Source: an uncultured bacterium (GTDB lineage: Bacteria; Planctomycetota; UBA1135; GCA-002686595). Taken from it: DNA of 64,000 nt. The notes under the pieces were generated by a model. It was not told where the DNA came from. It did not search any database and worked only from the letters and a program-made list of their open reading frames with translations. Positions within the stretch are counted from its first letter, which is position 1. The number at the start of each line of letters is the position of its first letter. Below, in pieces: positions 18,325 to 22,929 of this stretch. A program made the translations under genes and the position numbers. The DNA lies in contig CALJGV010000007.1 of NCBI GenBank assembly GCA_938075305.1, forward strand, positions 1 to 64,000, read 5' to 3'.

Positions 18325-21300
18325 TCAGCGATCCTGCCGCCGCTGGCCGCCCTTTCCAGACCCGCGCCGCTCCCGGGAGCCCTCCTTGCCCTTGTCCGGC
18401 CCCCGCCCCCGCCCACGGCTCGCCGACGGATCGAAGGTGGGGTTGGGCCCGCCAGGAAGCGCCGCCCCCGTGCTCCGCTGCCAGATCTCGAGCTCCTCCA
18501 GCAGCGCCTGGGCCACCTCGGGCCGGTCGCTGGCGAGGTCCGTGCGCTCGGACGGGTCCCGCGTCAGGTCGAAGAGCTCGGCGGGTTCCCCGTCGAAGGA
18601 CTGCACGAGCTTCCACCGGCCTCGCCGCATGGCGCTCGCGGGCGTGCCCTGCCCGGTGTAGCAGGGGAAGTGCCAGAAGAGGGCGCGCTCCTGCGGCACG
18701 TCACCGCCCCGGAGGAGCGGCGCGAGGGAGACGCCGTCGAGCCCCTCCCTGGGGGGCAAGCCCGCGAGGTCGAGCAGCGTGGGGAACACGTCCACCCCCG
18801 AGACCGGCACGTCGCTGCGCAGGGCCGCCGGGACCCCGCTCCCCCACAGGACCAGCGGGACGCGCGTGCCGCCCTCGTAGAGCTCCCCCTTGCCCCCACG
18901 GAGCGGCGCGACCCGGCGGCGCTCCCCGCCATTGTCCGAGGAGAACACGACCGTGGTCTTCCCGTCGATGCCCAGGCTCTCGAGCCGCGCGCGGAGCCGC
19001 CCCATGTTCCGGTCCACCGCGGCGACGGTGGCCGCGAACTCGGGGTCGCCGCCCTTCCCCTCGAAGCTCGCGAGGAGCTCGGGGTCGGGGTCGAAGGGGG
19101 CGTGGACGGAGTGCAGGGCGAGGTAGCACACGAAGGGCTCCCCGGCGTGCTCCTCGATGAAGGTGAGCGCCGCCCCGGTGAGCTCGTCCGGCAGCAACCG
19201 GCTGCCGTCGCGATAGGCGTTCCGCTCGAACCCCAGGTCCTTCGGCACAACGGCCACGTCGAAGCCCTGACCCTCCGGCCCCGCGTCGCGCTTGCCGAGG
19301 TTCCACATGCCGAAGAAGCCCGTGGCGAACCCGGCGCCCCCCAGCTCCTCGGCGAAGGTCTGGAACCCGGGGGCGAGCTCGGGCTCGCTGGCGGCGGCCA
19401 CGAGCGGGTGGTACGGCTGACCCGGCGCGTTGCGTCCGTCCACCACCGTGTACACGCCGTGGCGCCCGGGCCAGAGCCCGCTCAGGAGGCAGGCCCGCGC
19501 CGGAGCGCAGTTGGGAGCGCTCGCATAGGCCGCGTCGAACACGGCCCCCTCCGCCGCGAGGCGGTCGAGGTGGGGCGTTCGGAGCTCCCGGTTGCCCATG
19601 AAGCCCACGTCGTTCCAGCCCATGTCGTCGATCAGGACCACCACGAGGCCCTTGGAGGGACCCGCTCCCTCGGCCCCGTCCGGACGCCGCGCGGGAGGGG
19701 CCGTCCCAGGAGCCGAGCCCTCCGCCGGAGCGGCTGCCGGCACCTGGATCCGTCCGTCCCCGTCCCGGTCCTGTCGGTCGAAGAAGCCGCCGAAGAGCCG
19801 CCGCACCTCCCCTGCGGTGGCCTCGCCATCCCCGTCGACGTCCAGCTCGCCGCGGTGCCCCCGCAGGAACCCCGCCACGCTCGAACGGACCCGCTTGCCA
19901 TCGAGCTCGTCATCCGTGAGGACCCCGTCACCGTTGACATCGAAGGCGGTGCATGCGGTGGCCAGCTCCTCCATCAGCTCGACGCGTGTCAGCTGACCGT
20001 CGCCGTCCTCGTCGATCTCGGCCGCGTGTGCCAGGAGCCAGGGCTGGCGGCCCTCCCCCGCGTCTGCCCCCCCGCGCGCTCCGCTGCCGCCCGGCCCTTT
20101 CGGTCGGCGCTCCCCGCGCTCCGGCCGCTCGCGACGCTCGCCCCGAGGGCGCGCGCGGTCGGCACCGTCGCGGGCCGCCGCTCCGTACACCTCCTCCGTC
20201 GTGCTCCCATCAGGGTTCACGAACCGGAAGGTGACCTCGCCGCCCTCGCCCACCCGATAGTCGACTCGATGCTCCGCGCCGCGGAGCTGGTAGGTGAGCT
20301 GGTATCCGTCCTCGAGGGACCCCTCGAAGCCGGTGATGGTCGCGCCCCGGAGGGGCCGCGTGAAGGGCCGGACCCCGCGGGTTCGGGGCCTAGCGTCGAG
20401 GTCCACCTCGCCCGCGAAGCCGCCCATGAAGTACGGCTTCTCCCGCGTCCCGTGGTAGTGGTACGAACCATCGGCGTGCCGGTGGCCATGAGCGCCATCG
20501 AGCACCCCTGCGGCGGACCCGTCAGCCTCGCGCTCCCCGTAGATGGGCACGCCATCGAGGCCGAAGGCGATGGGCTGGTCCGGGCCCACGGTCGCCGCCA
20601 GGTGGAGCGGCGCCACGTGGTAGTGGTAGTCATCCGCTCGCCCCGCGTGCCCGCCGAACTCGTCGAGCTCCCCGTGCTCGAAGGCGTCGTGCTTGCCGCC
20701 CTGGGTGGTCGGGTCGAAGATCGGGATGCCGTTCACGGCCAGGGCGATCGGCCCCTCGAGGGTCGTTGGCGCCGGGGCCTCCAGCAGCTTCGGCCGCCGG
20801 GGGATCCTGAAGCCGTTGGACCCGGTGAAGGCCTGGGGCAGCGGGACCTGTTGGTTCCAGGCCCGGATCCCCACCATCATCCGGTGCTCCGGGAGCCCGT
20901 TGCCGCGGACGTGGATGAAGTCCTCGTCCCAGGTCACATCGAGGCCATCGAAGGCGAGGAACGGGCGGGCCTGCGCGGGGACCTCCGCCTCCGCAGGTCC
21001 TCCCCCCACCGATCCGCTCGGGGCCCGCGAGCCGGGAGCGGGGCCGCTGGGTGCCGCCGCGCCGCCGCCCCCGCGCTCGCGCCGCCGCTTGCCGCCGTCC
21101 CGGCCGTCCTCACGGCCGGGGCCCTTCTCTTCCCCACGGTCCGTGCCGCGGTCACCGCGGCGGTCTGGGCCTCGTCCGGTGCGACCTCTCCGCTCGCGGG
21201 CGTCGTCCCCGGCCCCCTTCCGCTCCTTGCGATCCGTGGGCTCGACCGCGGGGTCGTGGTTCGGGTTCGGCCGCCCGAACTCGGCGCCCAGCTCCTTGAG

Positions 21301-22638
21301 GTATGCCTGGAGAGCCAGCTTCAGCCGCGCGGCCACTTCAGGTTGCTGCTTCGAGAGGTCGCGCTGTTCGCCGGGGTCGGCGCCGAGGTCGTGGAGGGTG
21401 ACCTCGCCGGTCTCGTGGAACAGGGTCACCTTGAGGTTCCCTTCGCGCAGCGTGGATTGCGGCCCCGCGCTGCCCTGGTAGTGCGGGAAGTGGAACACCA
21501 GCCCCGGCCCCGGCCGCGACAGCCGGGACGCTGGGTCAGTCAGCAGCGGGACGAAGCTCGTCCCTTCAAGACCCTCCGGGAGACCCTTCGTCCTCCCCGC
21601 GAGGTCCGCGAACGTGGGCAAGAAGTCGAAGCCCACCACCGGCTCGTGACACCAGGAGTTCGCCTTGACGCCGGGCGCGCGAATGATGAAGGGGACGCGG
21701 ATGCCCCCCTCTCCCAGCCCGCCCTTGCCGCCGGCGAGCAGCCCGTTCCGGTTCCCACCGGCGCCGTTGTCCGACGTGTAGATGACCACGGTCGAGTCGT
21801 CGAGCTCCAGCCGGTCCAGCGCCGTCATCAGCCGCCCCACGCCGTCGTCCAGGTCCTCGGCGAGGGCCGCGCGCTGGAGGTCCTTGTCGCTCCTCCAACC
21901 GCCCCGCGCCTTCACCCGCTCGAGGGACGCAGCCCGAGCGTTCTGGGGGTAGTGGAGAGCGTGGAACGAGAGCTGGGCGAAGAACGGGCGCCCGTCGGCC
22001 TTGGCCTTCTCCATGAAGGCCTCCGTCCGCTCAACCATCCCGAAGATGTCCACGGGATTGGGGTCCACGAACGGGGCGGCGTCGCCGTTGCTCGTGTCAC
22101 CGTCATGGGCGTCGTAGCCGTGGTCTCCCGGCCCTCCGCCGGAGAGGTGCCACTTGCCGAAGTGCGCCGTGGTGTAACCCGCCTCCTTGAGCACCTCCCC
22201 CACCGTGACCTCCGCCCGCGGGAGCGACCGGGCGCTGACCGGCGGGATCAACCGATACCCGTCGTCGGCGGTCATGGACCTGGCTGCCTTGGTCCAGCCC
22301 AGCCGCGCGGGGTTCTTGCCCGTCTGGATCGAGGCTCGCGATGGAGAGCAGACAGGAGCGGGCGAGTACCCCTGGGAGAAGCGCATGCCTGCGGCGGCGA
22401 GCTCGGCGATCCGGGGGGTCCGCTGTCGCTCATCGGAGGCCCCGCGCTCGGTGGGATGCATGGGGACCGAGAGCCCGCTCCAGCTCTGGTCATCCGAGAG
22501 GATCAAGAGGATGTTCGGACGCTCGGGGAGCCCGTCTCGCGGCGGGGAAGCGGCGGGCGGAGCCGTCGGTACCGAGGCCAGGGCGGCCCCCACGAGGACG
22601 AGAACGGTGGGGATCGCGGATCGCAGGATCGGGCGCAT
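18325..22638 (-). CDS. Giant double-sulfatase protein: sulfatase, YHYH domain, EF-hands, second sulfatase
   Basis: From ATG 22638 (signal peptide at 1-30) the protein has 1437 residues. Sulfatase domain 1 (about 40-460) has CSPSR at 97-101, GKWHL at 161-165 and TSDNG near 289. A charged Arg/Gly/Asp-rich linker runs from about 465 to 550. A YHYH domain follows (about 560-760, YHYH at 671-674 and 726-729). Next come four EF-hand calcium loops at about 876, 900, 933 and 957 (DEDGDG, DVNGDG, DVDGDG, DRDGDG). Sulfatase domain 2 (about 995-1400) keeps CAPAR at 1044-1048 but reads GMWNLG at 1110-1115 where active enzymes have GKWHLG. Each sulfatase domain is followed by a basic tail after NPNHDP or NPTFDP. 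It is probably an exported enzyme acting on sulfated polysaccharides. Confidence 0.9.
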   Translation of the reverse strand: MRPILRSAIPTVLVLVGAALASVPTAPPAASPPRDGLPERPNILLILSDDQSWSGLSVPMHPTERGASDERQRTPRIAELAAAGMRFSQGYSPAPVCSPSRASIQTGKNPARLGWTKAARSMTADDGYRLIPPVSARSLPRAEVTVGEVLKEAGYTTAHFGKWHLSGGGPGDHGYDAHDGDTSNGDAAPFVDPNPVDIFGMVERTEAFMEKAKADGRPFFAQLSFHALHYPQNARAASLERVKARGGWRSDKDLQRAALAEDLDDGVGRLMTALDRLELDDSTVVIYTSDNGAGGNRNGLLAGGKGGLGEGGIRVPFIIRAPGVKANSWCHEPVVGFDFLPTFADLAGRTKGLPEGLEGTSFVPLLTDPASRLSRPGPGLVFHFPHYQGSAGPQSTLREGNLKVTLFHETGEVTLHDLGADPGEQRDLSKQQPEVAARLKLALQAYLKELGAEFGRPNPNHDPAVEPTDRKERKGAGDDARERRGRTGRGPDRRGDRGTDRGEEKGPGREDGRDGGKRRRERGGGGAAAPSGPAPGSRAPSGSVGGGPAEAEVPAQARPFLAFDGLDVTWDEDFIHVRGNGLPEHRMMVGIRAWNQQVPLPQAFTGSNGFRIPRRPKLLEAPAPTTLEGPIALAVNGIPIFDPTTQGGKHDAFEHGELDEFGGHAGRADDYHYHVAPLHLAATVGPDQPIAFGLDGVPIYGEREADGSAAGVLDGAHGHRHADGSYHYHGTREKPYFMGGFAGEVDLDARPRTRGVRPFTRPLRGATITGFEGSLEDGYQLTYQLRGAEHRVDYRVGEGGEVTFRFVNPDGSTTEEVYGAAARDGADRARPRGERRERPERGERRPKGPGGSGARGGADAGEGRQPWLLAHAAEIDEDGDGQLTRVELMEELATACTAFDVNGDGVLTDDELDGKRVRSSVAGFLRGHRGELDVDGDGEATAGEVRRLFGGFFDRQDRDGDGRIQVPAAAPAEGSAPGTAPPARRPDGAEGAGPSKGLVVVLIDDMGWNDVGFMGNRELRTPHLDRLAAEGAVFDAAYASAPNCAPARACLLSGLWPGRHGVYTVVDGRNAPGQPYHPLVAAASEPELAPGFQTFAEELGGAGFATGFFGMWNLGKRDAGPEGQGFDVAVVPKDLGFERNAYRDGSRLLPDELTGAALTFIEEHAGEPFVCYLALHSVHAPFDPDPELLASFEGKGGDPEFAATVAAVDRNMGRLRARLESLGIDGKTTVVFSSDNGGERRRVAPLRGGKGELYEGGTRVPLVLWGSGVPAALRSDVPVSGVDVFPTLLDLAGLPPREGLDGVSLAPLLRGGDVPQERALFWHFPCYTGQGTPASAMRRGRWKLVQSFDGEPAELFDLTRDPSERTDLASDRPEVAQALLEELEIWQRSTGAALPGGPNPTFDPSASRGRGRGPDKGKEGSRERRGSGKGGQRRQDR

Positions 22639-22929
22639 GGCGGGGTCGGGGGGGCTGGGCCCCGGGGGCGGGGCGAGGGCTCCATGGTGCTCTTCATGCG
22701 CAGGAACCCCCATGGCCGTGCCGGGTTCCGAGCCCGCGATCAAAAAGACCACCGGGGCGCTGGGCGGACGGACGCCGGAGACCTCGGGACCGCGACCGCT
22801 CGGCGCGACCACCGGGCGATTGCCCCCGAAACGTCATGAAACCTCGGCCCCCGGGGCAGCCCGCGGGCGCGTTGCGACTAACCTCTCTGCCTCGAACTCG
22901 AGCCTCCCCCCCGGCCCCACCTGAAGACC
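22639..22929. other. Divergent intergenic region between the sulfatase and icd genes
   Basis: These 291 bp should hold the promoters for both flanking genes. Open frames extend into it from the sulfatase side, but they have no recognisable protein character. I see no convincing -35/-10 pair and no clear operator. Confidence 0.4.

Follow-up and report, generated by a model that had tools for sequence, protein, structure and literature searches.

The stretch analysed here, called the window, comprises 64,000 nucleotides of contig CALJGV010000007.1 from an uncultured bacterium of the Planctomycetota. At positions 18325-22638 of its minus strand lies a single uninterrupted gene of 1437 codons, running from an ATG at 22638 to a stop at 18325-18327. 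Its reading frame encodes a sulfatase (S1), a YHYH domain, EF-hand loops, and a second sulfatase (S2). The exact start is uncertain, since the longest possible start is a GTG at 22812. Its neighbours, a monomeric isocitrate dehydrogenase gene that diverges from it and an ApbE gene that converges on it, indicate that the fusion gene stands alone. The following features were assigned:

18325..22638, minus strand: whole gene, sulfatase-YHYH-EF-sulfatase, 1437 aa (ORF and Pfam)
22555..22638, minus strand: probable Sec signal peptide, MRPILRSAIPTVLVLVGAALAS... (read from the sequence by eye; start codon uncertain)
21253..22524, minus strand: S1 sulfatase domain, aa 39-462, canonical active-site residues complete (Pfam, alignment, tree)
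22336..22350, minus strand: S1 formylglycine motif CSPSR, aa 97-101 (alignment)
22144..22158, minus strand: S1 catalytic motif GKWHL, aa 161-165 (alignment)
20965..21252, minus strand: basic low-complexity linker 1, aa 463-558 (in frame, GC3 0.83)
20134..20964, minus strand: YHYH domain, aa 559-835 (PF14240)
20053..20133, minus strand: basic linker 2, aa 836-862 (sequence)
19741..20052, minus strand: EF-hand region, aa 863-966 (three full loops and one without its last Glu)
19657..19740, minus strand: Pro/Ala-rich linker 3, aa 967-994 (sequence)
18409..19656, minus strand: S2, divergent sulfatase domain, aa 995-1410 (Pfam, alignment, tree)
19495..19509, minus strand: S2 formylglycine motif CAPAR, kept, aa 1044-1048 (alignment)
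19297..19311, minus strand: S2 GMWNL where GKWHL is usual, Met replacing Lys and Asn replacing His, aa 1110-1114 (alignment)
18328..18408, minus strand: basic C-terminal tail, aa 1411-1437 (sequence)

The four-part fusion in one polypeptide, as proposed in an earlier note on this DNA, was borne out by the open frame, by two stretches matching the sulfatase family PF00884 (E=1.6e-97 for the whole protein), by a match to PF14240, and by the presence of the EF loops. The locus could also be read as two proteins made through an internal start, or as an artefact of assembly. The GC-rich, low-complexity linkers are error-prone and the genome is a draft of 55 contigs; however, in-frame GC3 lies between 0.71 and 0.96 across every domain and linker, and YHYH-EF-S2 fusions recur in other genomes. 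The in-frame starts between the domains amount to one ATG and a few GTG codons, none of which precedes a signal-peptide-like stretch, which makes separate exported products unlikely. The note had named a stop or start used between the domains as evidence against a fusion; the frame holds no stop there and no start followed by a signal-peptide-like stretch, and this alternative is very improbable. The fusion protein is probably secreted, as a cleavable signal peptide was predicted by eye at its N-terminus. A plasmid search with the whole protein as query retrieved ordinary sulfatases only, none spanning 80% of the query. PADLOC gave no match to the protein, and PHROGs returned one family without assigned function, over the sulfatase region, and nothing else.

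S1 has a complete set of catalytic residues. CxPxR, Asp-Asp, Asp-Asn, the Lys and His of GKWHL, and the further His and Lys are invariant in an alignment of 16 rows (S1 of the window and 15 relatives), and the GKWHL Lys and His are kept in all 29 YHYH-linked proteins of the S1 clade. An FGE-family protein is encoded in the same genome (E=1.6e-84), so that the cell can probably make formylglycine. S1 is probably an ordinary formylglycine-dependent sulfatase and, judging from its family, most likely desulfates a sulfated glycan from the environment.

The YHYH domain scored 46.7 bits to PF14240 (cutoff 25), over positions 2-117 only of the 193-position profile. It is 47-67% identical to 27 relatives, and His104, His112, His114, Asp99, Asp109, and Asp110 are invariant in the resulting 28-row alignment. 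An AF2 model of the domain (mean pLDDT 87.5) had no match among PDB folds under E 0.001 and only three matches in BFVD, two of them to phage proteins named YHYH; the fold therefore gave no function. In jumbo phages YHYH has been predicted to be a Zn-binding hydrolase (PMC7824862), and here too it is predicted to be a metal-binding, possibly hydrolytic, domain. Four calcium loops of the DxDxDG type follow YHYH, as the earlier note had said. Three of them (aa 876, 900, and 933) are complete over 12 residues, with Glu in the last position; the fourth (aa 956, DRDGDGRIQV) lacks the final Glu, and the Pfam EF-hand models remained below their cutoffs.

The unexpected feature of the gene is the active site of S2. 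The domain matches the sulfatase fold profile (173 bits to PF00884), and C50, R54, D10, D11, D241, and N242, which make up CxPxR and the metal ligands, are invariant in its alignment, as are the other sulfate-binding His and Lys. What S2 lacks is the formylglycine-binding Lys and His of GKWHL. GMWNL is found in 22 of the 23 YHYH-linked S2 proteins (the window, 19 linked loci, and genomes G447 and G485) and the remaining one, at locus L087, has GKWNL; Asn is thus invariant over all 23. Among the nearest unlinked relatives of S2, GKWHL is present in 26 of 27, the 27th not being readable by pattern. A reciprocal test was run with S2 as bait on 392 genomes of the same phylum at a cut-off of 600 bits. 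Only G447, G485, and the window exceeded it (the next best match reached 532); in each of these, S2 is either next to YHYH or in one protein with it. A search of 149 genomes from the phylum to which one Planctomycetes genome belongs found no S2 at 1e-165, which by itself says little. S1 is less exclusive to YHYH than S2 is: it adjoins YHYH in G447, G485, and G367, and several other S1-clade matches have no YHYH match.

In known sulfatases, the Lys and His at these positions (Lys123 and His125) are in contact with formylglycine, and the His has been suggested as the base that regenerates it (PMC4014121). S2 is probably non-canonical and unlikely to function as an ordinary sulfatase does. That it is still an ordinary sulfatase in which the substitutions are tolerated would agree with the conservation of the rest of the active site, but both residues occur in all six sulfatases tabulated (PMC4014121) and the nearest unlinked homologues keep them, so this reading is rather unlikely. 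S2 could instead be a non-catalytic, anion-binding pseudoenzyme: every member has lost side chains that contact formylglycine, and the Asn is invariant. The same loss lends some support to the suggestion of the earlier note that one domain is used for binding. However, the invariant Cys, CxPxR, Asp-Asp, Asp-Asn, and sulfate-binding His and Lys go beyond what a binding module needs, and some catalysis may remain, since these residues are kept; the pseudoenzyme is a serious possibility, though it falls short of an even chance.

The origin of the two sulfatase domains was examined by comparing them with each other and with their neighbours elsewhere, as the earlier note had advised. S1 and S2 are 33% identical to each other, whereas each is approximately 50-56% identical to its own counterpart in other genomes. 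In a tree of 93 sulfatase sequences, S1 of the window and 15 cluster S1 proteins form one side of a branch with 100/100 support; S2 of the window groups with 13 cluster S2 proteins (100/99), far from the S1 clade. Both clades are common to several phyla.

Further genomic analysis, with the YHYH alignment as bait, gave 558 YHYH loci in the genome collection, of which 80 were listed. Among these 80, an S1-superclade sulfatase occurs in 39, S2 in 18, and both in 13. S1, YHYH-PBP, and S2 are three separate genes at L080, L108, L109, L113, L116, L136, and L149; S1 precedes a YHYH-EF-S2 gene at L081; a YHYH-EF-S2 gene precedes S1 at L073, L077, and L079; and YHYH-EF, S2, and S1 follow each other at L093. 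The S1/YHYH/S2 neighbourhood recurs in Planctomycetota, Verrucomicrobiota, Kiritimatiellia, and others. No second locus with the exact domain order of the window was found among the matches listed. Where YHYH has another partner than EF-hands, this is most often a PEBP-like (PBP) domain, present in 51 of the 80 loci listed (L073-L152).

The separate clades, together with counterparts that are neighbouring genes elsewhere, identify the gene of the window as the fusion of a cassette, and not as a duplication. The earlier note had raised the possibility that an ancestral single-sulfatase gene was duplicated internally and fused around YHYH and the EF-hands, because each half is a sulfatase with NPxxDP and a basic tail. 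The motif does follow each sulfatase (NPNHDP and NPTFDP). As a sign of duplication it fails, being a feature of the whole family that is also found in the solved sulfatase 9fo1 (NPNYDP) and in many single-domain relatives. Intragenic duplication was rejected on the 33% identity and on the tree, in which S1 and S2 occupy separate, widely distributed clades, and is scarcely credible. The fusion would have arisen, as we infer, from an arrangement like that of L081.

In genomes of the same family as the window, a different enzyme holds the place of S2. There a separate gene encodes YHYH (44-49% identical to that of the window), then EF or PBP, and then a calcineurin-like phosphatase (L061-L066 and L070). 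In several of these genomes an S1-superclade sulfatase is encoded directly upstream in an overlapping frame; unlike in the window, the C-terminal domain that follows YHYH-EF is the metallophosphatase and not S2. Such an exchange of S2 and phosphatase is suggestive only: the two occur together in 1 of 99 loci, where approximately 6 would be expected, with a Fisher p of 0.003 that ignores kinship, and among loci no shorter than 12 kb p is 0.14. It was considered from this that S2 might be a sulfatase-fold esterase acting on a phosphate or phosphonate ester or the like, and doing the job of the metallophosphatase in the related clusters. The phosphonate monoester hydrolase BcPMH, which shares this fold, is also altered at both the Lys123 and His125 positions (PMC4014121). 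However, its residues are Tyr and Thr while those of S2 are Met and Asn, the nearest relatives of S2 are sulfatases, and the exclusion is weak once short loci are set aside; an esterase of this kind is unlikely, on the whole. In one same-family genome (L187:1405-3219, G075:C23), an S1-type sulfatase reads into a partial YHYH in one frame, which is then broken; this gene is a frameshift or a pseudogene.

The explanation that we moderately favour is that an enzyme cassette, elsewhere usually spread over two or three adjacent genes, is here fused completely into a single chain, with a normal S1 and a non-canonical, conserved, YHYH-linked S2. S1 would desulfate a carbohydrate through the usual formylglycine mechanism, YHYH is predicted to bind metal and may be hydrolytic, and the EF-hands would take up calcium outside the cytoplasm. 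S2 represents a separate conserved subfamily with Met and Asn in the places of the Lys and His that bind formylglycine and serve its turnover, and it may bind an anionic substrate or hydrolyse another ester. Fusion would fix the stoichiometry and hold the partners on the same substrate, and external calcium could serve the sulfatase metal sites as well as the EF loops. As these genes are neighbours elsewhere, their fusion suggests that S1, YHYH, and S2 act together. It also places the enigmatic YHYH domain among partners, in a setting open to experiment, and points to a branch of sulfatases with an altered active site that lends itself to bench work. Among the neighbouring genes sampled around four related loci there is no glycoside hydrolase, so the arrangement does not resemble a classical polysaccharide utilisation locus.

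A bolder proposal is more tentative and, at present, doubtful. S2 might be a sulfatase subfamily turned to a new use and devoted to YHYH partners, in which the formylglycine machinery is kept and the Lys and His are exchanged for work on a different ester; the conserved cassette of S1, YHYH, and S2 or phosphatase might then be a hitherto undescribed system for processing esters in PVC and neighbouring phyla, carried on one chain here.

Two loci come closest to the window. In a Kiritimatiellia MAG (JAPYUI010000263.1, L073), YHYH-EF-S2 is likewise one gene with GMWNL in S2, and identity to the window is approximately 66% for YHYH, 55% for S2, and 54% for S1; unlike in the window, S1 is a separate gene, next downstream. 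In a Phycisphaerae MAG (JAUIHC010000114.1, L087:2591-6907), two sulfatases, EF-hands, and YHYH share one frame of 1439 aa, but in the reverse order S2-EF-YHYH-sulfatase, with GKWNL in S2 and a last sulfatase outside the S1 clade; this fusion is independent of that in the window. The best solved sulfatase relative is the same for S1 (245 bits) and S2 (282 bits) and shares NPxxDP with them, but it is a single domain and has GKWHL where S2 has GMWNL. In pairwise alignments, the SulfAtlas S1_16 markers Trp79, His125, and His149 (AMOR numbering; PMC11760155) were not found together in either domain: at the Trp79 position S2 has Val and S1 has Ala, at the His125 position S2 has Asn and S1 has His, and His149 is unmatched in both.

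Multidomain sulfatases of the same wider group have been described in Kiritimatiellales and Planctomycetes (PMC6388578), though there the partner is a glycoside hydrolase and not YHYH or a second sulfatase. In the open-access literature (most subscription papers lie outside this scope), neither the fusion of YHYH with a sulfatase nor the GMWNL subfamily was found described, and on double or tandem sulfatases there was nothing relevant beyond the sulfatase-glycosidase fusions.

Sulfatase-rich bacteria carry dozens of sulfatases without assigned roles, and the genome of the window has 66 sulfatase matches in 4.4 Mb, spread on many contigs. One of its genes, of 862 aa, is a second and unrelated double sulfatase (C46:7116-9704; L260:1617-4205, minus strand) in whose first domain the formylglycine motif is degraded (LCRPSL). 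A further weak sulfatase-like match (28 bits) lies in the window itself at 1240-2118 on the minus strand. An expanded cluster at L117 encodes an S1, a YHYH protein with PKD, an EF protein, a second S1, a YHYH-phosphatase, and an EF protein, and the YHYH of its PKD protein matches the full Pfam profile.
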